Positions 29,342-48,565 of a stretch of 64,000 nucleotides of DNA are shown here, piece after piece. The stretch comes from Pseudooceanicola nitratireducens (GTDB taxonomy: Bacteria; Pseudomonadota; Alphaproteobacteria; Rhodobacterales; Rhodobacteraceae): positions 1 to 64,000 of the forward strand of contig NZ_FNZG01000007.1 of NCBI RefSeq assembly GCF_900109195.1. The letters run 5' to 3'. The notes under the pieces were generated by a model, which was not told the DNA's origin, did not search any database, and saw only the letters and a program-made list of their open reading frames with translations. The first letter of the stretch is position 1, and each line of letters begins with the position of its first letter. The translations under genes were made by a program, and so were the position numbers.

Positions 29342-30037
29342 ATGATGGTCGCAGAGAAAGTCGACTGTTGTCTCCCGACATGCCAACCTGCTCACATGCA
29401 ACGGTTCTTCTCAACCAAGATGCCGGGCGTGAATTTTGTAATGAACGTCTTGGTCTTCAGCCTAATCGGTCTCCTGCCGGTCTTGCTCGTTTATGTCATG
29501 CGTGCGCCTGGATTTGCTTCGGCATTGATGGACGGTGGACCGGCGCTATCACGATTTCTCAGGCAGGTTCTGACGAATGGCCTACCGGTCATCTTTATCG
29601 TCAACTACGTCGGCTTCTTCCTGTTTGCGATGTTGAAGGCGAAAGACACCAATAGCCGTGATCCGGCGGTATTCATTCTCTTCGATGTGATAACTCGCGT
29701 CGCTCTTTTTCTCGTTCTCCACGCCTTCAATTACGTGCTTTCCGCCAGTTGGTTCGGCTCTTTTGGAGGCAGTCGGGCGACGGCTCTTTCAGTGGTTGCG
29801 CCCACACTGGCGCGGTCAGCACTCTTTGAAAACATATCCGGAGTCTACCTGTACGCCACTTTGGTAAGTGCACTGCCGCTCTATGTTACGGCAGCCGGAA
29901 AGTCGGCAATCCTGAGACCAATCTTTGATCTCTTCCCAAAGAAAATGGGCGCGGTTTCGGTTGCTCTCCTTGCTTTTTTGTCGGCCGCTGTGTGTCTGAC
30001 GGCTACTGCAGCCGTCATCCTGCGTCTCCTGAGCTAG
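29342..30037 (+). CDS. Multi-pass membrane protein of unknown function
   Basis: 231 residues with about five hydrophobic helices (near 32-53, 78-97, 107-126, 165-185 and 205-228). The N-terminus has three Cys (DCCLPTC) if 29342 is the start; the ATG at 29396 (MQRFFSTKMPG) would omit them. No family recognised. The stop overlaps the convergent dsbB by 4 bases. It stands at the edge of the copper island. Confidence 0.55.
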   Translation: MMVAEKVDCCLPTCQPAHMQRFFSTKMPGVNFVMNVLVFSLIGLLPVLLVYVMRAPGFASALMDGGPALSRFLRQVLTNGLPVIFIVNYVGFFLFAMLKAKDTNSRDPAVFILFDVITRVALFLVLHAFNYVLSASWFGSFGGSRATALSVVAPTLARSALFENISGVYLYATLVSALPLYVTAAGKSAILRPIFDLFPKKMGAVSVALLAFLSAAVCLTATAAVILRLLS

Positions 30038-30549
30038 ACTGCCGTCACGCTCTCATCTGAGCGGGACGCGCGCCAAGCTTTGGCAAGAGCCAGGATCCAG
30101 AGCCCTGCAAGAACGAAACTCCAAAGCGCGTTCCAACTCGCCATCGACAGGCTCAGAAATTCCCACGCGACTTCGTCACACATCACCAAGGTTGATGGAG
30201 CGGATGATGCGGAGGGCAAAAGGTCCGAAGCTAACAAGTTCGACATATCAAGACCAGAGCCGGTGCACGCCGTCGGACCTTCCCACCAACCTCGTTCGAC
30301 GCCGGTATGGAACATCCCGATACCCGCTGTCACGAACGCGGCGGCAGCGCCTGCCATCAGTAGCAGTAAGATGGGCAAACCAACCATGAGGAGCACGCCG
30401 ATAGCGATGGCGATCGCGTGAGGGTATCGCTGCCAAATGCACATCGCGCATGGTGCGTAGCCCGCTGCCTGAAACAAGAAGGCAGCCAGCAAAAGAACGG
30501 CCGATCCGCCGGCAGCGATCAAACCAAGTTGTTTCGAAGACAGCCGCAT
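30034..30549 (-). CDS. dsbB: DsbB-type disulfide oxidoreductase
   Basis: 171 residues, four helices. First Cys pair CAMC in APCAMCIWQRYPH, second pair C...C in the longer periplasmic loop (PTACTGSGLD... LVMCDEV). DsbB re-oxidises DsbA with quinone. It lies downstream of cusF on the same strand after a strong hairpin, so it may be partly separate from the cus transcript. A partner DsbA-like protein is encoded at 37223. Confidence 0.88.
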   Translation of the reverse strand: MRLSSKQLGLIAAGGSAVLLLAAFLFQAAGYAPCAMCIWQRYPHAIAIAIGVLLMVGLPILLLLMAGAAAAFVTAGIGMFHTGVERGWWEGPTACTGSGLDMSNLLASDLLPSASSAPSTLVMCDEVAWEFLSLSMASWNALWSFVLAGLWILALAKAWRASRSDESVTAV

Positions 30550-30650: not shown

Positions 30651-30992
30651 TCAGTTCGGCATTATGGCCCCGATTGCGTACATGCCATCCTCGCCCTTGA
30701 CGAGCATCAGGGTCACCTCGTCACCATCGGTCACCTCGCCCATCATCTGCGCGTTTTCCAGAACCGTCATATCCATCGTCATTGCAGGCCAGCCGATCTC
30801 GGGAATCGGGTCATGGCTCACGTTGGCCGTGCCGTCGCCGATGGAATTGATCACGGCCTTTGCGTGAACTGCGCCCTCCATTTGTTCGGCGGACATCGGC
30901 ATGTCCGAATGATCCATATTGTGGTTCATTTGTGCGATAGCCCCTGTCGCGGACAGGGTCAGAAGTGCGAGACTTGCAGTCAGTATCTTCAT
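30651..30992 (-). CDS. cusF: CusF-like periplasmic copper chaperone
   Basis: 113 residues. Signal peptide ending AIA, a Met/His-rich linker (QMNHNMDHSDMPM) and a CusF fold with ligands H in NVSHDPIPEIGWPAMTMDM: H, W and two M as in E. coli CusF. It hands Cu(I) or Ag(I) to the Cus pump. GGAG lies before the ATG at 30992 (itself inside an upstream ATG codon context at 31004). It is third in the cus row after cusB and cusA. Confidence 0.9.
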   Translation of the reverse strand: MKILTASLALLTLSATGAIAQMNHNMDHSDMPMSAEQMEGAVHAKAVINSIGDGTANVSHDPIPEIGWPAMTMDMTVLENAQMMGEVTDGDEVTLMLVKGEDGMYAIGAIMPN

Positions 30993-31025
30993 GAGAAGCT
31001 CCATTCTTGAGGTTTGTGCGTTCGA

Positions 31026-34000
31026 TTATTCGGCAGGCAGTGCTGCATCGACGGGCTGCTGAATTGGGGACGTGATTTCGCGGTTAACGCGTTTCAGCGC
31101 GAGCCGTTTCCAAATCACGAATATGGAAGGAATGACAAAAAGCGTCAGCAGGGTCGCTGTCACCATACCGCCGATCATCGGTGCAGCGATGCGTTGCATG
31201 ATCTCCGAGCCGGTGCCGGTGCCATACATGATCGGTATCAGCGCCGCGAAGATGGTGGCCACGGTCATGACTTTGGGTCTCACCCGAAGAACAGCTCCCT
31301 CAAAGACGGCCTCCTCGATATCGTCTTGTGTCAGCTTGCGGCCTTCGGATTGACCGAGTTTGCGTCGCTTTTCCCAGGCGAGATTGAGATAAAGCAGCAT
31401 GACGATAGCTGTTTCGACGGCCACGCCGGCCAGGGCAATGAAGCCGACAAGGACGGCGATCGAAATGTCGAAGCTGAGATACCACAGAAACCAGACACCG
31501 CCTGCCAACGCGACAGGAAGCGCGGCGAGAATGATGCCAACTTCGATCACCCTATTGAACGCCATGAACAACATCAGCGTGATGATCATAAGCGTGGCGG
31601 GGGCGACGATCGCCAGCCGGTCCTGCATCCGCTCGATGTACTCATACTGCCCGGACCATGTCAGAGAATATCCGGGCGGTAGACGCACCTGATCGGCCAC
31701 GACCCTCTGCGCCTCGGCGACATATCCGCCGAGGTCTCGTCCTGCGATATCGATAAACACGAACCCCGTGCGCCGAGCGTTCTCTGATCGGATCATGCCC
31801 GGACCATCCACAATTCGAACATCGGCCAAGGCGGTCAGCGGCACATGAGCCCCCGATGGGGTGACAACGGGCAAGTTTTCGAGGCGTTCGGGGCTGTCGC
31901 GCCACGCCTGCGGATAGCGCAGGTTAATCGGAAAGCGCTCCAGCCCTTCAACGGATTCCGATACCTGCATCCCACCGATGGCGGTTTGCACCACATCCTG
32001 AACATCCCGCACGCTCATCATGTATCGCGCTGCGGCGTCGCGCTTGACGTCGATTTCTATGAAGCGCCCGCCTACCGGACGCTCCGCATAGGCGGAGGCA
32101 GTTCCCTCGATATCCGACACGGCTCGTTCCACTTCGATCCCGATGTCTGTGATGACGTTCAGATCAGCACCCGAAATCTTGACACCAACCGGCGTTCGTA
32201 TCCCGGTGGCAAGCATGTCGATCCGGTTCTTGATCGGCTGGATCCAGACATTGGTCACGCCAGGGATCTGCACAGCCCGATCAAGCTCATCGCGAATTTT
32301 TTCCATGGTCATGCCAGGGCGCCACTCAGCTTCTGGTTTGAGCTGGATCGTGGTTTCCACCATCGTGAGTGGTGCAGGATCGGTCGCTGTCTCTGCGCGC
32401 CCCACTTTGCCGTGCACAGTTTCGACCTCTGGGATTGTAGCGATCAGGCGATTGGTCTGCTGCAGGACCTCGCGCGCCTTACCGATCGACACGCCCGGGT
32501 AGAAGCTTGGCATGTAAAGGAAGTCGCCCTCATTCAGCTCGGGCATGAACTCGGACCCGAGCCGTTGGTACGGATACCACATTGAAGCCACGAGGGCGCC
32601 GGCAAGCAAGGTTGTCGCCCACGGCCAGGCGATGGCTGCGTCGAGAAAGGGACGATACAGGAAGACCACCAATCGGTTCAGTGGGTTTTTGCGCTCGGGC
32701 AAAATCCGGCCCCGGACAAAGTAACCCATCAAGACCGGAACCAGTGTGATCGATAGGATCGCGGCGGCGGCCATCGCGTAGGTCTTTGTATAGGCCAGCG
32801 GGGCAAAAAGCCTGCCCTCCTGATTTTCCAGCACAAAGACAGGCAGAAAGCTGACCGTGATGATTGCCAAGGAGTAAAAGAGGGCCGGACCGACCTCAGA
32901 GGCGCATTCCTGCACGATCCTCCACCTGTTTTCTGCGGTAAGCTTCTCCTTCTCCAGCCGCCTGTGCATCGCCTCGATCATCACGATCGACGCATCGACC
33001 ATGGCTCCAATGGCAATCGCTATGCCGCCAAGCGACATGATGTTCGCATTCACACCCTGCGCTTTCATCAGAATGAAGGCAGCGAAGATTCCGAGGGGCA
33101 ACGACAGAAGGATCACCAGTGATGAGCGCAGATGCAGCAGAAAGGCCGCACAGACGAGGACGACGACAACGAATTCCTGCGTCAGCTTCTTCTTGAGATT
33201 GTCGATTGCGCGTTCGATCACGCCGGACCGGTCATAGGTCGTGATAATCTCGACACCTTCCGGCAGGTTCGGCCGCAACTCTTCGATGCGGGCCTCCACC
33301 GCTTTGATGGTCGCAAGGGCATTGCCACCCCATCGCATGATGACCACGCCGCCAACGGCATCGCCTTGCCCGTCAAACTCTCCGACGCCGCGGCGCAATT
33401 CCGGTCCTAGGCGAATGTCAGCAACGTCGCCGAGGGTCAGAGCAGCTCCACGCTCGTTGATCATTAGGGGGGCGCTGGATAGATCAGAAAGCTCATCGAT
33501 GTATCCGGACGAGCGGATCATGAATTCTGCTTCGCCCATCTCGATCACGCTTCCGCCGGTCTCTCGATTGGCCGCTTGTATCGCGTTCCTGAGTTGTGTC
33601 AGCGTGATATCGTAGGCCCGCAATTTGTTCGGATCGACGACGACCTGATACTGTTTGACCATGCCGCCAATTGTTGCCACTTCAGACACACCGTCGACAG
33701 CCTGCAGTTCGTATTTCAGAAACCAGTCCTGCAGCGTTCTCAGTTGCGCGAGATCGTGTGTGCCGGTTCTGTCGATCAACGCATATTGGTAGATCCACCC
33801 GACCCCGGTGGCATCCGGGCCAAGCTGAGGGGACACTCCGTCCGGCAAGCTCCCGGTGATCTGCCCAAGATATTCGAGGACGCGGGATCTTGCCCAATAC
33901 AGGTCCGTGCCATCTTCGAAAACGACATAGACAAAACTGTCACCAAAGAAGGAAAAGCCGCGTACATCCTGTGCGCCAGGTACCGCCAGCAACGATGTGG

Positions 34001-34208
34001 CGAGCGGATAGGTGATCTGGTTTTCGACCACTTGCGGCGCCTGCCCCGGATAAGGGGTGCGGACGATCACCTGCACATCGGACAGGTCCGGTATCGCATC
34101 GACCGGTGTCTCGCGGATGGCCCAGATGCCTGCGACACCCATCATGACGGCAAGGACCAGAATAACAAACCTATTGGCCAGCGAGGCGCGGATGATCGCC
34201 GGGATCAC
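31026..34208 (-). CDS. cusA: CusA heavy-metal RND efflux pump
   Basis: 1060 residues, normal size for HME-RND pumps. N-terminal helix (RFVILVLAVMMGVAGIWAI) and TPVDAIPDLSDVQVIV are family signatures, as are the periplasmic porter domains, VDASIVMIEAMHRRLE, a Met-containing funnel, and the second helix bundle up to FVIPSIFVIWKRLAL. Proton-driven export of Cu(I)/Ag(I) through CusB and an outer-membrane channel. No CusC gene is seen in the window. The start overlaps the cusB stop by 4 bases. Confidence 0.95.
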   Translation of the reverse strand: MIPAIIRASLANRFVILVLAVMMGVAGIWAIRETPVDAIPDLSDVQVIVRTPYPGQAPQVVENQITYPLATSLLAVPGAQDVRGFSFFGDSFVYVVFEDGTDLYWARSRVLEYLGQITGSLPDGVSPQLGPDATGVGWIYQYALIDRTGTHDLAQLRTLQDWFLKYELQAVDGVSEVATIGGMVKQYQVVVDPNKLRAYDITLTQLRNAIQAANRETGGSVIEMGEAEFMIRSSGYIDELSDLSSAPLMINERGAALTLGDVADIRLGPELRRGVGEFDGQGDAVGGVVIMRWGGNALATIKAVEARIEELRPNLPEGVEIITTYDRSGVIERAIDNLKKKLTQEFVVVVLVCAAFLLHLRSSLVILLSLPLGIFAAFILMKAQGVNANIMSLGGIAIAIGAMVDASIVMIEAMHRRLEKEKLTAENRWRIVQECASEVGPALFYSLAIITVSFLPVFVLENQEGRLFAPLAYTKTYAMAAAAILSITLVPVLMGYFVRGRILPERKNPLNRLVVFLYRPFLDAAIAWPWATTLLAGALVASMWYPYQRLGSEFMPELNEGDFLYMPSFYPGVSIGKAREVLQQTNRLIATIPEVETVHGKVGRAETATDPAPLTMVETTIQLKPEAEWRPGMTMEKIRDELDRAVQIPGVTNVWIQPIKNRIDMLATGIRTPVGVKISGADLNVITDIGIEVERAVSDIEGTASAYAERPVGGRFIEIDVKRDAAARYMMSVRDVQDVVQTAIGGMQVSESVEGLERFPINLRYPQAWRDSPERLENLPVVTPSGAHVPLTALADVRIVDGPGMIRSENARRTGFVFIDIAGRDLGGYVAEAQRVVADQVRLPPGYSLTWSGQYEYIERMQDRLAIVAPATLMIITLMLFMAFNRVIEVGIILAALPVALAGGVWFLWYLSFDISIAVLVGFIALAGVAVETAIVMLLYLNLAWEKRRKLGQSEGRKLTQDDIEEAVFEGAVLRVRPKVMTVATIFAALIPIMYGTGTGSEIMQRIAAPMIGGMVTATLLTLFVIPSIFVIWKRLALKRVNREITSPIQQPVDAALPAE

Positions 34209-36628
34209 TGGGTAACCCTCCCGTCACGGACAACATCGATCAATGTCATCGAGAAATCCGGGTTGCGCCGCAGGATGAGCGTGACGTCCGTTCCCACTGT
34301 GAGTTGGGAAATCTCGAGCTCCTCAGCCAAGGGAAAATCCATCGTCATTCCGGGCATGCCGATATCGGTCATCGGCCCATGGGTGATGTTCGCCGTCCGT
34401 GATTGAGCATCGATGGAGTTGATTTGACCTGAAACCTGCATGGGCGGTGCCACAGGTTCGGCCGCTGCCAGCACCATGTTCATGCCGTCCGGGCGCGCGA
34501 AAGTGAGCACCATCTCCACATCTGTCATCAAAGCGGCAGCGTCGAGTGACGGATCAATATCAAAGGCCATGGTCATGCCAGGCATGCCGATATCGGTCAT
34601 CGGTCCATGGGTGATCGTGGCCTTTGAGGCGTCTGTATCGACACTATCGATCGTGCCTGAGACCACGATGGGCGGTGCCGCAGCTGCCTCAAGCTCGACA
34701 TCAGACAAGATCATGTTCAAGCCATCCGGCCGTGCAAATGTGAGGGTCATTTGGACGCCGGTTTTCAGCGATGCCATGTCCAAGCCCGGATCGATGGGGA
34801 AATCCATGGTCATGCCTGGCATTCCGATCTCAGCCATGGGCCCGTGGGTGATCGTTGCGGTTCCGGAATGCAGATCGAGGTCGTCGATGGTGCCGGACAC
34901 CATGATCGGCGCCGCGGCATTTGTTTCAGCCGCTTCCACCTCTTCGGGATCGGCGCCCTCGGCGCGGACCGCGACTACGGAGAAAAGGCCGCCATCACCT
35001 GCCGTGAGATCGAATTCGATCGGCGCATCGAGGGGCACGGTCTCGAGATCAACCCCCAACACCGGCAGGTCCATCGTCATTGCGGGCCAGCCAAGCTCTG
35101 GGATCGGGCCGTGCTCCAGCGTTAGCTTGCCATCCGACGTCACCGCGCGTGCAATCCCAGTGCCGGTACCGGCAATTCCATCATCTGGCGCAAGTTCGGT
35201 GAGGCTCAGGAGTCCATCGGCGCCACGGGCCACGAGAAACGCGACTGCCTCCCCCTCCTTTAGCCGATCCAGGGGAACATCGGCTCTCACCGGGAAGTCG
35301 GATGTCATCGCTGGCCAGTCAAGGCTTTCCAGGGCATCATGCTGCACGGTTGCCACCCGATTCTCAGGATCGAGAGCAACGAGAACACCGCTGCCCCGCG
35401 CCGGGTCGGCATCCGTTGGCGCCATGCGCGTGAAGCCTGCGCTCAAAGCGCTTTCGCTGTCGATCAGGAACTGTGCGGAGGCAACGACCTCTTCACCCGG
35501 ACCCAGGCCCTGAAGAATTTCTGTCCGCCCTCCTTCTCCGAAACTGTCCCGGAGACCGGCAGTCACCAATCTCGGTCGGAAGGTCCCCTCCCCTGTTTTC
35601 AGGATGACGCGCTCAGCCGACCCTGTCCGTATTACGGCCTCAGATGGCACTGTCAGGACCGTCCGGCTTTCGTTGGGCCTGAGACTGACACTTCCGAACA
35701 TTCCGGGGCGGAGCACGCCATCGGAATTGTCAAACCTCAGTCGAACAGGAAGCGTTCGTGTTTGGGGATCGAGTTCAGGATAGATGTAGTCGATGTCGCC
35801 TTCAAACACGCGCCCTGGCAAGTGTTCGAACCGAGCGATGGCCCGCATATCCTCAGACAGCCGGGCAATATCACGTTCAAAGACATCTACAATGAGCCAG
35901 ACCTTCGACAAGTCAGCGACGGAGAAGGCAAGCGTTCCAGGTTGCAAATACATGCCATCGGCCGCATTCAGGGCGATGACCACGCCGTTCTGTGGTGCTT
36001 CGATCTCGATGTTGCGAACCAATTCGCCGCCCGCCTCGATCTCCGCAACCTGGCGGGCGGACATACCGTGGCTCATCAGCTTGTTGCGCGCCGCATCCAG
36101 AATGCGGGGGTCACCATCTTCGACAGCGCGAACAAGATCACCCGTCGCGGCTGCGATGAGTGGAGAAAAGAGCTCGAAAAGAACCTGCCCCCCGGCAACG
36201 CGGTCTCCGACCGCTCGGACCTTAAGCCTTTCGACCCAACCTTCTACCCGCGTATGCACATGACTGGTCAGATGTTCGTCATACCCCACGAAACCCACAG
36301 TCTCGATCCGAGGCTGCACTTCACTCATGCGGGCGACCGCCGTGCGTACGCCGATTGCGTTGATTTCGGCCGCGTTCAGTGTGACCTCGGCAGGATCACC
36401 AGATGGTTCCTGTCCGGCATAGACTGGAATAAGATCCATCCCCATGGGCGACTTGCCCGGTCCTGGTTGACGGAAATTTGGGTCCATGGGCGCAACCCAA
36501 TAGAGAATCTCGGGGCCTTCAGATCCGCCTTGCACCGCTGGATTCAGGTACAACCGCTCAACGTAAACCCCACCGCCAAGGCCAGCTGCCAAGGCAAGAA
36601 CTGAAAGTGCCGCGTATCTTCCACGCAT
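34205..36628 (-). CDS. cusB: CusB membrane-fusion protein with five C-terminal CusF-like domains
   Basis: 807 residues, about twice the usual CusB. N-terminal membrane anchor (about 5-22); a heavy-metal-binding motif YWVAPMDP...PMGMDL (43-66); the usual adaptor part (barrel-sandwich and beta-barrel, about 80-400). Then five CusF-like repeats at about 413-480, 490-557, 576-646, 655-725 and 731-802. Each has the His / W-or-M / Met pattern: repeat 1 DWPAMTSD (second Met lost), repeat 2 GWPAMTMD, repeats 3-5 GMPGMTM with Met in place of the Trp. Single CusF fusions are known; five in tandem is unusual. It should bind several Cu ions next to the pump. Confidence 0.92.
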   Translation of the reverse strand: MRGRYAALSVLALAAGLGGGVYVERLYLNPAVQGGSEGPEILYWVAPMDPNFRQPGPGKSPMGMDLIPVYAGQEPSGDPAEVTLNAAEINAIGVRTAVARMSEVQPRIETVGFVGYDEHLTSHVHTRVEGWVERLKVRAVGDRVAGGQVLFELFSPLIAAATGDLVRAVEDGDPRILDAARNKLMSHGMSARQVAEIEAGGELVRNIEIEAPQNGVVIALNAADGMYLQPGTLAFSVADLSKVWLIVDVFERDIARLSEDMRAIARFEHLPGRVFEGDIDYIYPELDPQTRTLPVRLRFDNSDGVLRPGMFGSVSLRPNESRTVLTVPSEAVIRTGSAERVILKTGEGTFRPRLVTAGLRDSFGEGGRTEILQGLGPGEEVVASAQFLIDSESALSAGFTRMAPTDADPARGSGVLVALDPENRVATVQHDALESLDWPAMTSDFPVRADVPLDRLKEGEAVAFLVARGADGLLSLTELAPDDGIAGTGTGIARAVTSDGKLTLEHGPIPELGWPAMTMDLPVLGVDLETVPLDAPIEFDLTAGDGGLFSVVAVRAEGADPEEVEAAETNAAAPIMVSGTIDDLDLHSGTATITHGPMAEIGMPGMTMDFPIDPGLDMASLKTGVQMTLTFARPDGLNMILSDVELEAAAAPPIVVSGTIDSVDTDASKATITHGPMTDIGMPGMTMAFDIDPSLDAAALMTDVEMVLTFARPDGMNMVLAAAEPVAPPMQVSGQINSIDAQSRTANITHGPMTDIGMPGMTMDFPLAEELEISQLTVGTDVTLILRRNPDFSMTLIDVVRDGRVTQ

Positions 36629-37222: not shown

Positions 37223-38005
37223 ATGGATTCCAAGAAACGGTCAACGCTTCTGACGATCGGTGCGATCATCGCAGGGTACGCCGCCCTGCGCACAGTTCCC
37301 TCATTGTTGCCGGAAAAACTGGAATTGCAGGCACTCGATAGACCAGAAGGATTTCGTAAGTTCGTTGCGGGTGAGACGTCAGGCGGCTTCGATCCTTTCG
37401 TAGGCCTGGGCACGGCGGACAGCACCGAAGTGGCGGCGCAGAAAGCCGCAGCCTTGGAGCGCGTCTCCGATAATATTTGCTCGGCCCTTTATGGTGGTCT
37501 GACTCCCACGCCTACGCAGGTCCCGATGGCGTCGTTCTCGGACTACTATTGCCCCTTTTGCCGCGTGCAAACCAAACGGTTGGCCGACATGACGAGCGAG
37601 ATGCCAGACAAGATCGCAGTGGCTTGGCATGAATTGCCGCTCCTCGGCGACAGCTCAAATCTTGCGGCCAAGGCAGCTCTGGCGGCGAAACGGCAAAATG
37701 CCTATGTCGCCTTTCATGAACGGCTGATGAAATCCCCTTTCCAGGCAACGCCAGAATATCTCTCGCGCCTCGCCACTGATCTTGGCGTCGATGGCAGCCA
37801 ATTGATCACCGACATGGAGAGTGCCGAGATCACGCGCGAGCTGGAAGACAGTGCAGCGCTTGCACGCGTGTTCGCCTTTGTCGGCACGCCGGCCCTCGTG
37901 ATCGGCCGCACTGTCGTCCAAGGTCAGATCAGCGACAAAATGGTTCGGGAAATCATCGAGTTGGAGCGCGAAGAGGGTTGGCAGAATGTTTGTAAGGCTG
38001 CTTAG
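37223..38005 (+). CDS. DsbA-family thioredoxin-like protein (CPFC)
   Basis: 260 residues. An N-terminal helix (about 8-26) anchors or exports it; the active site is CPFC in FSDYYCPFCRVQ; the cis-Pro region is FVGTPALVIG. Thiol oxidoreductases of this group (DsbA/BdbD/ScsC-like) oxidise or isomerise disulfides in periplasmic proteins. It heads dsbA-rhodanese-scsB, in which ScsB would supply or take electrons. Copper causes wrong disulfides, so the row is a plausible copper-repair unit. Confidence 0.88.
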   Translation: MDSKKRSTLLTIGAIIAGYAALRTVPSLLPEKLELQALDRPEGFRKFVAGETSGGFDPFVGLGTADSTEVAAQKAAALERVSDNICSALYGGLTPTPTQVPMASFSDYYCPFCRVQTKRLADMTSEMPDKIAVAWHELPLLGDSSNLAAKAALAAKRQNAYVAFHERLMKSPFQATPEYLSRLATDLGVDGSQLITDMESAEITRELEDSAALARVFAFVGTPALVIGRTVVQGQISDKMVREIIELEREEGWQNVCKAA

Positions 38006-38064
38006 GCTGCAAGGCTCGCCCCGGGAAGTCCTGGCGTTTCTCGTCAATCGACTGTGGAGGCAAC

Positions 38065-38520
38065 ATGGATAGGCGGTGCTTCATCCTGCTTGCATCGACA
38101 TGGGTCATGGGGCCGCAGGTCGTTGCGGCCGCCACGCGCGAGATCTGGTCGGCTGCCGAGACGGCCGACGCATTGGCGCAGAACAGGATTTCCCTGATTG
38201 ATGTTCGATCGCGCCCCGAATGGGTGGAAACGGGCGTCGCGAAAGCCGCATGGCCGATCAGTATGCACGAACCCGTGTTCGAGCAGCGCTTGTTCGCCGC
38301 ACGCGATTTTTCAGGCGAGAAACCCATTGCGCTGATCTGCGCCACCGGGGGGCGCAGCGGCCGTCTTTTGAGCGCCTTGAAACGAGCCGACTACACGGGC
38401 TTCATCGATGTCTCGGAAGGCATGCTGGGATCACAGAAGGGGCCAGGCTGGATCGCACGCGGATTGCCCGTGACGGATCTGGAGGCGGCCTTGGCCAGCC
38501 TGCCTGGCGTACTGCGTTGA
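38065..38520 (+). CDS. Secreted rhodanese-like protein
   Basis: 151 residues: signal peptide (CFILLASTWVMGPQVVAAA), rhodanese fold with SLIDVRSRPEW and the active loop CATGGRSGRL, whose Cys would carry a persulfide. It may act on sulfur species or bind Cu in the periplasm. It stands between dsbA and scsB, 59 and 4 bases away. Rhodanese domains beside copper genes have been seen in other proteobacteria; the substrate here is unknown. Confidence 0.85.
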   Translation: MDRRCFILLASTWVMGPQVVAAATREIWSAAETADALAQNRISLIDVRSRPEWVETGVAKAAWPISMHEPVFEQRLFAARDFSGEKPIALICATGGRSGRLLSALKRADYTGFIDVSEGMLGSQKGPGWIARGLPVTDLEAALASLPGVLR

Positions 38521-38524
38521 CTGC

Positions 38525-40651
38525 ATGCACACCCAAATGACGGTCCGAGTTTTTCACCTCGGGGCTTGGCTTCTGCTCATCCTTATCGGTTGCGTGGGCA
38601 TCTTCCTATCCGATGCCGCCAACGCTGCCGAATCCGAGAGCTTTTCAAACCCCGCCGTCACGGCGCGTCTGATCTCGGCCGAAGACGGGATTGCGCCGGA
38701 TGCCGCCTCCGTCTCACTTGGGTTGGCCTTGGAGTACGGCGAGGGCTGGAAGGGATACTGGCGCACCCCCGGCGAGGTTGGCTTGGCACCGGAGATCAAC
38801 TGGTCGGGTTCGACCAACCTGAAATCCGCCGAGCTACTCTGGCCCGCGCCGGAACGGTTCGAGGCCTTCGGGATCGAAAACTTCGGCTATTCCGGTCAGG
38901 TTGTCTTGCCGATCCGCGCGAGACTTGAGGACGACGGCCACCCTCTGGAACTGCGTGCCCGCGTGTCCTTGCTGACATGTTCGACTGTCTGTGTGCCCCA
39001 TGACTTCGAACTTTCACTCGCCCTGCCACAAGGCATCGGGATCGATACAAACTCGGCTCGCCAAATTGCTACTTATGCCGATCGCGTTCCCGCGGTACCC
39101 GAGAACAGCGACATCAGGATATCGGTCACGGCCCTCGATGCGCGCGACTCGGCTCTCATCGTTGTGGCAACGAGCGACACACCGTTCGGTGAGGTCGACG
39201 TGTTCCCGGAATTCGGACCCCTTGTGACCTTTGGCAAACCAGATATCCGGTTGGATCGCGATAGAACGGAACTCTGGGCACAAATACCGATCAACGCCTG
39301 GACCGAAGAGCATGCAGAGCCTTCGGTGACGATCACAGACACCGCACGTGCAATCACGGCGCCGATCACGCTTACCTCAGATCCCCCTGCCCCACCGTTT
39401 TCAAGCGCGAACCCTCGAACGAGTGTGCTGAAGGTCGTGGCGGTGGCCGCCATCGCCTTTCTCGGTGGTCTGATCCTGAATGTCATGCCCTGCGTGTTAC
39501 CCGTTTTATCGATCAAGCTCACATCCGTTTTGAAGGCAACCGGTCAAACCCGGCAGATGACGCGCAACGGATTCCTGTTTTCAGCCTTGGGGGTACTGAC
39601 ATTTGTCTGGGCGCTTGCGGCTGCCTTAGTGTTTCTTCAATGGATCGGAGTATCCGTCGGCTGGGGTATACAATTCCAAAATCCGGTCTTCGTGACGCTG
39701 ATGTTCATGGTCATCGTCGTCTTTGCCGCCAATCTCTTCGGTGCATTCGAGATAACCCTGCCCGCGGCCCTTCAAGACCGCCTGGGTGCCAGCAATGCCA
39801 GAGCCGGGTACATCTCAGACTTTGGCACCGGACTGCTTGCGGCCATCCTCGCTACGCCGTGTTCCGCCCCGTTCCTCGGCACCGCGATCACCTTTGCGCT
39901 CGCGGGTACACAACTGGACGTGATAGTGATATTCACGGCGCTCGGTCTTGGACTGGCCCTCCCCTACCTGGTCATTGCCGCACGTCCCGAGTTGGTCACG
40001 CGACTGCCCCGGCCCGGGCGATGGATGCTTCTGGTCAGGATCCTTCTTGGCGGTCTGTTGCTGGCAACAGCCGCATGGCTCTTGTTCGTTCTTGTCGGCG
40101 TGACGGGTGGGCGTGCAGCTGCCTTCATCTCGGCACTCACAGCTGTGTTCATTGTCGCCGCATCAATCCCACAGGCAAACCAATGGGTACGGCGTGCGGT
40201 TCTCAGCGCCTGTGTTTTTCTGGCGATTTTCGGGGCAGGTCTCACCTCAACCCCTGACCGCACCACAGCAGGGGTTGATGCGACGTCCCACTGGCAGGAT
40301 TTCGAACCCCTCGGCATCGCGCGCCGCGTCTCTGAAGGCGAGACGGTGTTCGTCGATGTGACCGCGGATTGGTGTCTGACCTGCAAAGCCAACAAGTCTC
40401 TCGTGCTTGACAGGGATCCAGTGCGTGCGCGGTTGCGCGGCGGTTCCGTGATCGCCATGCAGGCGGATTGGACCCGCCCGGATGACAACATCGCGCGGTT
40501 TCTCGAGCGATATGACCGCTACGGCATTCCGTTCAATATCGTCTTCGGGCCAGGGTCGCCTTCCGGCATCGCTCTCCCGGAAATTTTGACGCCACAGGCA
40601 GTTCTTGACGCTCTCGACACAGCGTCTGTTCGAAGTGTCGCGTCGGAGTAA
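38525..40651 (+). CDS. scsB: ScsB/DsbD-type thiol-disulfide interchange protein
   Basis: 708 residues. Signal peptide; an N-terminal DsbC/ScsB-like periplasmic domain with Cys pair TCSTVC (about 153-158); eight-helix membrane part with MPCVLPVLSIKL and ATPCSAPFLG Cys residues; C-terminal thioredoxin domain DVTADWCLTCKANK. Electrons pass from cytoplasmic thioredoxin across the membrane to periplasmic partners, such as the two DsbA/ScsC-like proteins here. ATG at 38525 or 38537. In Salmonella and Proteus scs genes protect against copper. Confidence 0.92.
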   Translation: MHTQMTVRVFHLGAWLLLILIGCVGIFLSDAANAAESESFSNPAVTARLISAEDGIAPDAASVSLGLALEYGEGWKGYWRTPGEVGLAPEINWSGSTNLKSAELLWPAPERFEAFGIENFGYSGQVVLPIRARLEDDGHPLELRARVSLLTCSTVCVPHDFELSLALPQGIGIDTNSARQIATYADRVPAVPENSDIRISVTALDARDSALIVVATSDTPFGEVDVFPEFGPLVTFGKPDIRLDRDRTELWAQIPINAWTEEHAEPSVTITDTARAITAPITLTSDPPAPPFSSANPRTSVLKVVAVAAIAFLGGLILNVMPCVLPVLSIKLTSVLKATGQTRQMTRNGFLFSALGVLTFVWALAAALVFLQWIGVSVGWGIQFQNPVFVTLMFMVIVVFAANLFGAFEITLPAALQDRLGASNARAGYISDFGTGLLAAILATPCSAPFLGTAITFALAGTQLDVIVIFTALGLGLALPYLVIAARPELVTRLPRPGRWMLLVRILLGGLLLATAAWLLFVLVGVTGGRAAAFISALTAVFIVAASIPQANQWVRRAVLSACVFLAIFGAGLTSTPDRTTAGVDATSHWQDFEPLGIARRVSEGETVFVDVTADWCLTCKANKSLVLDRDPVRARLRGGSVIAMQADWTRPDDNIARFLERYDRYGIPFNIVFGPGSPSGIALPEILTPQAVLDALDTASVRSVASE

Positions 40652-43523: not shown

Positions 43524-46034
43524 CTATTCCGCGGGTTGGGTCTGTGCACTGATCCGTGGTGCGGTGATGTCTCTGTCTTCACGCAAGGCCGGCGCGATGC
43601 GGCGCAGACGCAGGGCGTTTGTCAGAACCGATACCGACGACAGGGCCATAGCACCCGCCGCGAAGACCGGGGAAAGAAGCAAACCAAAGGCCGGATAGAG
43701 AACCCCGGCAGCGACCGGGATCAGCGCGACATTGTACCCGAAGGCCCAGACGAGGTTCTGGCGAATGTTCGACATGGTGCGCCTGGAAACCTCAACCGCA
43801 TTCACCACGCCGCGCAGATCGCCTGACATCAAGACCACATCGGCGGATTCGATAGCGACATCGGTTCCGGTGCCGATGGCGATGCCGACATCCGCATGGG
43901 CCAAGGCCGGTGCATCATTGATGCCGTCGCCGACGAAAGCAATCATTCGGTCTCCCGCGCGCAGATCGTCGAGCGCTGCGACCTTGCCATCCGGCAGGAC
44001 ACCCGCGATCACGTGGTCGATTCCGGTTTCGCGCGCGATGGCCTCCGCCGTCTCGCGTTTGTCTCCGGTGATCATCGCAACCTTGAAACCGCGCGCGTGC
44101 AGGGCTGCAATGGCTTCCTGGCTGGCGGGTTTCACGGGGTCCGCCACGGCGATCACTGCGGCCAGTTTGCCGTCGATCGCCGCATAAAGCGCTGTCCGGC
44201 CCCGCCCTGCCAGCTCGGCTTCCGTTTCGACCAAGGCGGCGATTTCGATCCCTTCGCGGGACATATAACGGTCCGCGCCGACCATCACCTCCTGACCTTC
44301 GACAGTCGCGGCGACGCCGTAACCGGTGATCGACCGGAAGCCCGTGGCATTCGGAACGGCGATCCCTTCGGCCCGCGCGCCGCGGACAATGGCTTCGGCG
44401 ATGGGATGCTCAGACTGGGCCTCCACAGCGGCGATCAGGCTCAGCACTTTGTCTCGGTCGAAACCGTCGGTAGTGACCAGATCGGTCAGCGACGGCTGGC
44501 CTTCGGTGACAGTCCCCGTCTTGTCGAGTGCGATGACATCGACTTCGGACAAGGCTTGGAGCGCATCCCCCTTGCGGAACAAGACTCCCATCTCTGCGGC
44601 GCGCCCGGTGCCCACCATGATCGACGTGGGTGTGGCCAAGCCCATGGCGCAAGGACAGGCGATGATCAGAACCGAGACGCCGGCCACCAGCGCAAAGGTC
44701 AAAGCCGGGTCCGGTCCGACAAGCAACCAGATCACAACCGTGAGTGCCGCGAGCACCATGACGGCAGGCACGAACCACAGGGTCACGCGGTCAACTAGGC
44801 CCTGGATGGGCAGCTTGGCACCTTGAGCCTCTTCGACCATGCGGATGATCTGCGCGAGTGTGGTATCTGAACCAACCCGTGCGGCCTTAAACGTCAGGCT
44901 TCCAGTGCCGTTGACAGTCCCGCCAGTGACAGCGGCACCAGCGGTTTTCTGCACGGGCACGGGCTCTCCGGTAATCATGCTCTCATCGACATTACTCGAC
45001 CCCTCGGTCACCTCGCCATCCACGGGGATCCGTTCACCCGGTCGGACAAGGATCACATCGCCGACAGCGAGTGCGTCGACATCGACCTCCGCCGTTTCAC
45101 CGCCCCGAATGACGCGCGCGGTGCGGACCTGCAGGCCCAGCAAAGCCTGAATCGCTGCGCCGGTGCGACCCTTCGCGCGTGCCTCAAGCCAGCGCCCAAC
45201 CAGAATGAGGACGACGATGACCGCAGCTGCCTCAAAGTAAACCGCGCGTACCCCCTCTGGCAGGAGTCCGGGAAGAAAGGTTGCGACCACCGAGTACCCC
45301 CAGGCCGCGCCGGTGCCGACGGCAACGAGGCTGTTCATGTCCGGCGCGCCCTTGAAAAGCGCGGGAAACCCCTTGGTGTAGAAATGGCGTCCCGGCCCGA
45401 AGAGGACGAGTGTTGCGAGGACGAACTGGATGATCCAAGACGTTTGGAGACCAATCGTCGTCATCACCAAGTGATGAAATGCCGGAATAAGATGGGAGCC
45501 CATTTCTAGGATGAAGACCGGGAGCGTTAGAATTGCTGCCAAAAGGACGCTGCGACGCAGTCCGTCGGCTTCTTCTGCCTTGCGTGCGGCGCGAGACTGG
45601 CTCGCCTGCGCCTCTGCAATCTCGGCCGGATAACCAATCGCCGCCGATGCCGCCATCAAATCGCCCAAGGACACCGCGCCCTCGAGATACTCGATCGTTG
45701 CCGTTTCTGCCGCCAGGTTCACGCTGACGGAAAGCACTCCGGGCACGTCCGCCAGTGCCTTGTCCACCCGTCCGACGCAGGATGCGCAGGACATGGACGC
45801 AATGTTCAAAGTGACTTTGGATGTCCGCGCGGGATAACCCAAGGAGGCAAGCGTCTGCGTGGCGTCGGTTAGCCGAGACGGATCATCCAGCGAAAGGCGC
45901 GCCGTCTCAGACGCGAGGTTGACGGCGACGTCGGAAACGCCGTCGAGCCCCGCCAAGGCCTTTTCAACACGTCCCACGCAGGATGCACAGGTCATGCCGT
46001 CGATGCTGAGCGTTGTTTGGCTGGTGTCGGTCAT
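43524..46034 (-). CDS. copA: Cu(I) P1B-type ATPase CopA
   Basis: 836 residues. Two HMA domains with TCASC (C16, C19) and SCASC (C83, C86); membrane helices; ion motif CPC in [13 protein letters not shown]; phosphorylated Asp in [11 protein letters not shown] motif in [23 protein letters not shown] hinge. This is the P1B-1 form that exports Cu(I) from the cytoplasm. A CueR-type promoter is upstream at 46066-46096, and cueR follows in the same operon, giving a feedback loop. Confidence 0.96.
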
Positions 46035-46065: not shown

Positions 46066-46096
46066 GATATAGGGCTTCCAGTCACTGGAAGCTCAA
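46066..46096 (-). promoter_or_regulatory. CueR-type promoter of copA
   Basis: Minus strand: -35 TTGAGC, 19-bp spacer TTCCAGTGACTGGAAGCCC with the dyad CTTCCAG/CTGGAAG, and -10 TATATC. This matches the known CueR operator form closely. The ATG of copA is 32 bases from the -10. Confidence 0.88.
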
Positions 46097-47836: not shown

Positions 47837-48565
47837 CTATTGACCTGCGGCGCGTGCCTCCTGCGTAAGACGGATCATCTGATCGGCCTCGATGACCCCC
47901 GGAACCAGCGCGTCTCCGATCACAAAGGATGGCGTGCCATTGAAGCCGAGCGCGCGGCTCATCTCCATTGACGCCGCGATATGGGCATCGATCTCAGGTG
48001 CCTGCATGTCCCGTCGCAGCTGCGCGATATCCAAACCAATCTCCTGTGCGACCTGGATGACGGACGCTTCCTCGGCCCGGCCTTGCATGCCCATCAACGC
48101 CCAGTGAAATTCCTCGTATTTACCCTGCTCTCGCGCGGCCAATGCGGCGCGCGCGGCAAAAACAGAGCCGTCGCCGAGGATCGGCCACTCTCGATAGACC
48201 AGCCTCACATTGGGATCTTCGTCCAAGAGCGCTTCAATATGCGGCTTTACCCTACGGCAATAGGGGCAGTTGTAATCGAAGAACTCCACGACCGTGACGT
48301 CGCCTTCTGGATTTCCGAGAACCGGTGCGTTCGGGTCGTTCTCGAGGAGATCGCGATTTTCGGAGAGGACACTCGCCGCCGCGGCCGCCTGCCGTTCCTG
48401 TTCACGCCGTTCAATGATCTGAACCGCCTCGAGGACGATCTCCGGGTTTTCGCGGATGGCCTCCAGGACCAATTCCTTGACCCGGTCTTCGCTGAGCGCG
48501 TCAGCATGAGACGCGAATGGGGCGAGCAAAGTGACGACCAGAGACATCGTCATTGCGATCTTCAT
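47837..48565 (-). CDS. scsC: ScsC/DsbA-type periplasmic thiol oxidoreductase
   Basis: 242 residues. Signal peptide, then a helical N-terminal extension (EDRVKELVLEAIRENPEIVLEAVQIIERREQE), typical of ScsC proteins that use it to form trimers, then a DsbA fold with CPYC in FFDYNCPYCRRVK and cis-Pro GTPSFVIG. ScsC works with ScsB (38525) in copper resistance of enterobacteria. It is placed between cytochrome c and the L,D-transpeptidase in the copper oxidase operon. Confidence 0.9.
   Translation of the reverse strand: MKIAMTMSLVVTLLAPFASHADALSEDRVKELVLEAIRENPEIVLEAVQIIERREQERQAAAAASVLSENRDLLENDPNAPVLGNPEGDVTVVEFFDYNCPYCRRVKPHIEALLDEDPNVRLVYREWPILGDGSVFAARAALAAREQGKYEEFHWALMGMQGRAEEASVIQVAQEIGLDIAQLRRDMQAPEIDAHIAASMEMSRALGFNGTPSFVIGDALVPGVIEADQMIRLTQEARAAGQ

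Follow-up and report, generated by a model that had tools for sequence, protein, structure and literature searches.

CusF is a familiar example of a cation-pi metal cap. In E. coli, it exchanges Cu(I) with the N-terminal methionine site of CusB, which in turn passes Cu(I) to CusA (PMC4446572 and PMC6235853, in the excerpts available). A CusF-like domain can also form part of the adaptor itself, as in SilB of Cupriavidus metallidurans CH34, where it is located at the C-terminus (excerpt of PMC4446572). Two CusF motifs, HWMM and HMMM, the letters standing in order for His, cap residue, Met and Met, have been searched in 1,081 genomes (excerpt of PMC5552934, citing Kim, Rensing and McEvoy 2010), and the Met-type form of CusF is thus already known. 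The window, meaning the whole stretch of 64,000 nucleotides from Pseudooceanicola nitratireducens analysed here, encodes a protein that resembles SilB (2l55) in joining a CusB-type adaptor to a C-terminal CusF-like region. Unlike SilB, for which one such domain is described, the protein and its relatives carry four or five, of two site types and in a fixed order. We conclude that the window gene is genuine and represents a distinctive multi-site form, conserved in marine bacteria, of the known fusion of CusB with CusF. Its domains, with the evidence for each, are located as follows.

34205..36628, minus strand: gene for a CusB-like periplasmic adaptor of 807 residues, whose C-terminal part comprises five CusF domains (ORF translation, Pfam, alignment)
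36422..36502, minus strand: HMBD metal-binding segment, residues 43-69, with three Met residues (Pfam and alignment with E. coli CusB)
35696..36319, minus strand: HlyD_D23 adaptor core, residues 104-311 (Pfam)
35189..35401, minus strand: CusF repeat 1, motif DWPAMTS, site HWMS, Ser replacing the last Met ligand (profile and motif)
34967..35164, minus strand: CusF repeat 2, motif GWPAMTM, complete Trp-type site HWMM (profile and motif)
34715..34903, minus strand: CusF repeat 3, motif GMPGMTM, Met-type site HMMM (profile and motif)
34469..34663, minus strand: CusF repeat 4, motif GMPGMTM, site HMMM, probable tandem duplicate of repeat 3 (profile, motif, repeat comparison)
34256..34438, minus strand: CusF repeat 5, motif GMPGMTM, site HMMM, corresponding to the last repeat of four-repeat relatives (profile, motif, repeat comparison)

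The gene boundaries given in the original prediction proved exact. Judged by its sequence, the protein is a CusB, a periplasmic adaptor of the RND heavy-metal type, and its adaptor part is real: residues 30-407 align with E. coli CusB (3ne5_B) at an E-value of 7.1e-42, and the HlyD_D23 core matches PF16576 at 3.1e-69 (Pfam). The HMBD segment scores 24.9 bits, barely above its cut-off of 23.6 bits, and its three Met residues align with Met residues near the N-terminus of E. coli CusB. A scan for promoters and terminators around the cusB start found none.

After the adaptor part, where five CusF-like repeats had been read from the motifs, Pfam places five CusF_Ec domains (PF11604) at about residues 410-802. 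The whole-protein match has an E-value of 2.1e-78 and 258.6 bits, for a cut-off of 27, and each of the five repeats lies above the curated PF11604 cut-off in a six-frame search of the host genome; as a profile match, this five-fold agreement is far beyond chance. The His and both Met ligands are present in repeats 2-5, repeat 1 being without the last Met, and the cap is Trp in repeats 1 and 2 and Met in repeats 3-5. The motifs are therefore those originally described, with W in repeat 2, GMPGMTM in repeats 3-5 and no last Met in repeat 1, to which it can be added that repeat 1 also keeps the Trp. The absence of a Trp cap from repeats 3-5 does not settle CusF membership, because Met is common in PF11604. 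Each domain of the tail is acidic (net -6 to -9), and 26 of the 408 tail residues are Met. An alignment was built from 27 of 30 chosen tails, leaving out L032, L049 and L045, the last of which carries a stop codon; the 26 other tails in it are 48-77% identical to that of the window, the two closest relatives aside. The mean column identity of the 27 tails is 51%, whereas the four ligand residues are invariant in all 27 at repeat 2, repeat 3 and the last repeat.

The AlphaFold model of residues 400-807, for which the 27 aligned tails served as input, has a mean pLDDT of 85.3 and a pTM of 0.36. In this model, the tail is composed of five separate and confident barrels, whose relative arrangement is unsettled. 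The predicted repeats form the small OB-type barrel expected for CusF, and Foldseek matches the tail model to CusF (1zeq and 2vb2) at a TM of 0.83 of the target and to SilB (2l55) at 0.75 of the target; two matches rank above CusF, both of them proteins with several nucleic-acid-binding domains and a very large rmsd. The expectation that the repeats fold as CusF is in agreement with this prediction. The repeats share the predicted fold and the H, (W), M, M site with E. coli CusF (1zeq, 2vb2, 2qcp) and SilF (PMC10656224, in excerpt), but the latter are separate proteins with a Trp cap, whereas repeats 3-5 are Met-capped. When repeat 3 was compared with the PDB, ten sequences matched, and the cap position is Trp in four of the five alignments shown and Ala in the other, 3e6z (W44A). 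The E. coli W44A variant is thus changed at the same cap position, with the difference that the change was made in the laboratory, while the Met of the repeats is natural and conserved. E. coli CusF W44M, which was not found in the open-licence literature, is reportedly a laboratory cap variant in which the Met form binds more tightly.

A broader survey places these sites within the diversity of CusF. A CusF match is present in 119 of the 398 genomes of a phylum sample, and the matches listed, string loci being left out, comprise 138 ORFs, of which 47 have a CusB core and 91 do not (classed by a CusB-core test rather than by length; three ORFs change class). Among the CusB-core ORFs listed, 26 of 47 carry one CusF domain (20 HWMM, 6 HMMM) and 21 carry two CusF-like domains, with a broken second site in 16 of the latter. 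The earlier statement that some CusB proteins carry one CusF domain was accordingly an understatement. The present lineage thus keeps its extra sites intact where most sampled two-domain proteins do not. The listed ORFs without a CusB core have HWMM in 49 cases out of 91, HMMM in 40 and another site in two, and repeats 3-5 resemble these HMMM proteins, whose motif is named in print (excerpt of PMC5552934). Among the 158 distinct domains in the matches listed from the phylum sample, the cap residue is most often W (103 domains), followed by M (45), R (nine) and L (one); the Met count is 54 of 173 when the window and the loci fetched by a Met-motif pattern are included. Other genomes of the window's genus contribute 12 distinct domains (13 stretches), all Met-type. 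The replacement of Trp by Met noted in repeats 3-5 is thus confirmed, but it cannot be considered a new form of CusF, given these 45 of 158 listed domains and the motifs in print (PMC5552934, in excerpt). A different CusF fusion was observed in L248 (G111:C17:72600-75300), a 706-aa ORF that reads as multicopper-oxidase-like and ends in a CusF-profile domain, coded HMMM with the unusual motif GFMGAMTM.

The strangest features of the string are the fixed order of its sites and the conserved defect in repeat 1, and both recur in the mixed-string relatives. A scan of named genome contigs, with seeds that included the motif peptides GWPAMTMD and MPGMTMDF, yielded 78 loci from the best 80 candidates, and the relatives exclude L001-L006, which belong to the window's own genome. 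Among these best candidates, 51 of the 78 loci encode a protein with at least three CusF domains, and 46 of the 51 are mixed strings (38 with four domains, seven with five and one with three), a number that excludes L039, whose domains are split over two ORFs, and L050, which is cut by a contig end. The other five, from Gammaproteobacteria, have three domains each, all Trp-type, and in four of these proteins the third domain is broken. In the mixed strings, among the matches listed, repeat 1 has the Trp cap and either Ser or Thr at the position of the last ligand (46 of 46), repeat 2 is HWMM (46 of 46), and the repeats after the second are HMMM in 97 cases out of 98, with a single HTMM. It could be argued that this order is an artefact of the motif seeds. 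A Pfam search without any motif gave the identical order in all 15 complete strings: it covered 296 family genomes, that of the window among them, of which 43 have any CusF match and 15 a complete multi-CusF CusB (12 four-domain, three five-domain). This set and that of the named loci are not independent, several genomes being probably common to both. In one further genome of the Pfam survey, a contig end carries two Met-type repeats (L247). In addition, four plasmid records match the whole query at an identity of at least 97%, their domains not being counted singly, and the protein of Roseobacter litoralis is 97.2% identical to the window CusB. The supposed rarity of a five-repeat CusB is partly contradicted, and five repeats are not unique to the window, since such proteins occur in seven named relatives among the best 80 candidates and four-repeat proteins are more frequent still. 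No description of a mixed, ordered CusF string on CusB was found in the open-licence literature, which is a weak negative. The original prediction did not contain the fixed order of sites, nor did it note that repeat 1 is consistently defective or how the fifth repeat arose.

Other arrangements were also observed. In L039 (5956-7989), the cusB ORF carries repeats 1 and 2, and the next ORF, in the same frame, carries one Met-type repeat; either a pseudogene or a sequencing error may lie behind this split. L081 has three CusF-like domains, all HWMM. The Alteromonas-type CusB proteins L064, L065, L066 and L072 have three CusF-like domains, the third site being lost (RRAL), an instance of a surplus copy degenerating in a separate lineage.

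The fifth domain of the window protein is most simply explained by a putative tandem duplication of repeat 3. In the window, repeats 3 and 4 share 64% identity over aligned stretches, and in the near-identical relatives L007 and L008 they share 69-70% over profile columns. Across L007-L010 and L057, they are 69-80% identical to each other and closest to position 3 of four-repeat proteins, with repeat 5 closest to position 4; L051 has the same pattern, at 59%, and that of L047 is less clear. As for the Met cap, the Met repeats of the strings (100/97 support) are placed in trees beside Trp-type alphaproteobacterial CusF and apart from the stand-alone Met clade. When the cap column is taken out, a tree of 77 selected domains, based on 64 columns only, implies four W/M changes, and a single change is found in 0% of 200 bootstrap trees, the bootstrap itself being unsettled. 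One origin is not rejected by the AU test of a single Met clade (p 0.113 for all Met rows, p 0.117 for string and stand-alone proteins), and a quick tree of 247 domains came with a warning of long branches that meet.

Copper-related genes surround cusB, and three of them are located as follows.

31026..34208, minus strand: cusA-like RND pump gene, 1060 aa, sharing 4 bases with the end of cusB (ORF, Pfam, alignment)
30651..31004, minus strand: separate cusF gene, 117 aa, Trp-type motif GWPAMTM (Pfam and motif; CusF match at 30660-30869, above the cut-off in the six-frame search)
43524-46034, minus strand: heavy-metal P-type ATPase gene

The window CusA is closely related to E. coli CusA, and its Met 566, 616 and 665 align with Met 573, 623 and 672 of the latter, which we take to be the Met triad of the metal pathway. 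The Trp-type cusF and dsbB lie downstream of cusA, and genes for DsbA-like, rhodanese, DsbD-like and DUF305 proteins are found near cusB, as are those for the P-type ATPase, a multicopper oxidase, CopD and a two-component system. The order cusB-cusA-cusF-dsbB is annotated on plasmids of R. litoralis and Phaeobacter inhibens, where cusF is named "copper-binding protein", and the Phaeobacter plasmid has cueR, copper resistance protein B and a copper multicopper oxidase near the cusB relative. An ORF of more than 900 residues starts at most 400 bases from the cusB end in 40 of the 46 mixed-string loci; two of the remaining six reach a contig end, and four lack an ORF of that size at that distance. 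Unlike CusCFBA, the window system is not encoded together with an outer-membrane channel CusC: PF02321 has no match on its contig (C14), the six matches in the genome being on C19, C16 and C7, and the annotated neighbours displayed for R. litoralis and P. inhibens include no such channel. Either another locus would thus supply the partner channel, or the pump may not assemble into the customary complex that spans the envelope. Two further observations concern this region. Thiol-redox genes (DsbB, DsbA, rhodanese, DsbD) cluster with the copper genes at 30034-30549, 37223-40651 and 47837-48565, partly also on the related plasmids, and a further DsbA in this cluster has an ScsC_N match below its cut-off. 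A palindrome, AGCTTCCAGTGACTGGAAGC, at 46073-46093, just upstream of the P-type ATPase gene, resembles a CueR-type operator; a scan for CueR-type motifs gave nine matches in the window where 4.3 were expected, and four of 100 shuffles reach nine, so that chance is possible.

We propose that the tail is a tethered string of CusF-type chaperones for Cu(I)/Ag(I) that feeds CusBA, which we regard as the most likely reading and a probable one. The tethered domains would collect Cu(I) in the periplasm, by putative binding, and hand it to the N-terminal Met site of CusB and then to CusA, as free CusF does in E. coli. As the corresponding E. coli transfer elements are present in the window, tethered feeding is the simplest reading. 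It is supported by the computed domains, predicted fold, ligand sets and conserved order, and also by the conserved N-terminal Met residues of CusB, the Met triad of CusA and the linked Trp-type cusF. The idea of a multi-site copper tail beside the pump, already put forward in the original prediction, is a natural one in view of the CusF domains, their predicted fold and the adjoining CusA with its three metal-pathway Met residues. The string would raise the local number of loaded sites, with four complete sites per CusB. The order of the site types suggests a division of labour, in which repeat 1, a weakened site next to the adaptor body, may be a structural or docking spacer, the Trp-type repeat 2 an exchange site, and the distal Met-type repeats a buffer or capture bank. 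The acidity of the tail domains (net -6 to -9) counts against this feeder role, as it is unlike the electropositive residues suggested for the docking of E. coli CusF (excerpt of PMC5552934). The missing channel gene on the contig and the copper sensitivity of R. litoralis, described below, also count against it.

A more elaborate form of this proposal is an ordered Cu(I) relay of two chemistries, with distal HMMM sites for capture, one HWMM site for exchange and the weakened HWMS/T site at the adaptor. Position along the chain would set direction or buffering, and the Met cap would have arisen in the string from a Trp-type CusF, independently of the stand-alone Met family. We consider this reading possible but doubtful.

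It can also be hypothesised that the tail is mainly a periplasmic sponge for Cu(I)/Ag(I), which protects the periplasm by retaining metal firmly at its Met-type sites and passes little of it on. Of the complete sites, three out of four have the Met cap, one of them apparently gained by the tandem duplication of repeat 3 as if capacity had been selected, and the Met content of the tail (26 of 408 residues) is in line with such a role. However, a complete Trp-type repeat 2, needless for pure storage, is kept in all 46 mixed strings among the matches listed, and the domains remain fused to a pump adaptor, so that storage as the main function appears unlikely.

Soft thioether ligands suit Ag(I), and on this general ground the pump might mostly serve silver or another cation, with a tail tuned for that metal, although we find this improbable. 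Copper inhibited R. litoralis at 0.04 mM, while Roseobacter denitrificans grew at 0.1 mM, and the authors suggested that the efflux genes might serve other cations (excerpt of PMC3141670). R. litoralis, which has a near-identical gene, therefore tolerates no more copper than R. denitrificans does, and the presence of the 97.2%-identical protein in a copper-sensitive species counts against a strong copper role. This evidence weakens a copper role without excluding it, because the comparison is between species, which differ in much else, and not between mutants. The neighbours of the window gene (P-type ATPase, multicopper oxidase, CopD) and those on the Phaeobacter plasmid (cueR, copper resistance protein B, copper multicopper oxidase) also argue against a pump tuned to another metal. 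Lastly, a neutral expansion of a fused CusF domain, with repeats devoid of their own function, is very improbable: it would agree with the second copy broken in 16 of the 21 listed two-domain CusB-core ORFs outside the strings, with the third copy without ligands in four of five gammaproteobacterial three-domain relatives and with the incomplete repeat 1 here, but 97 of 98 distal sites and all 46 copies of repeat 2, among the matches listed, keep all four ligands across tails that are only 48-77% identical to that of the window (26 others, the two closest aside).

The tethered feeder remains our preferred reading, and its interest extends beyond this locus, as the role of the CusF Trp is not fully understood (PMC6235853, in excerpt). 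One chain with Trp- and Met-capped sites in a conserved order is a natural side-by-side comparison of the two caps. If the ordered relay were true, the cap residue would be a recurrent evolutionary switch. With the chaperones tethered to the adaptor, a single molecule would also allow the passage of metal from chaperone to pump to be followed.
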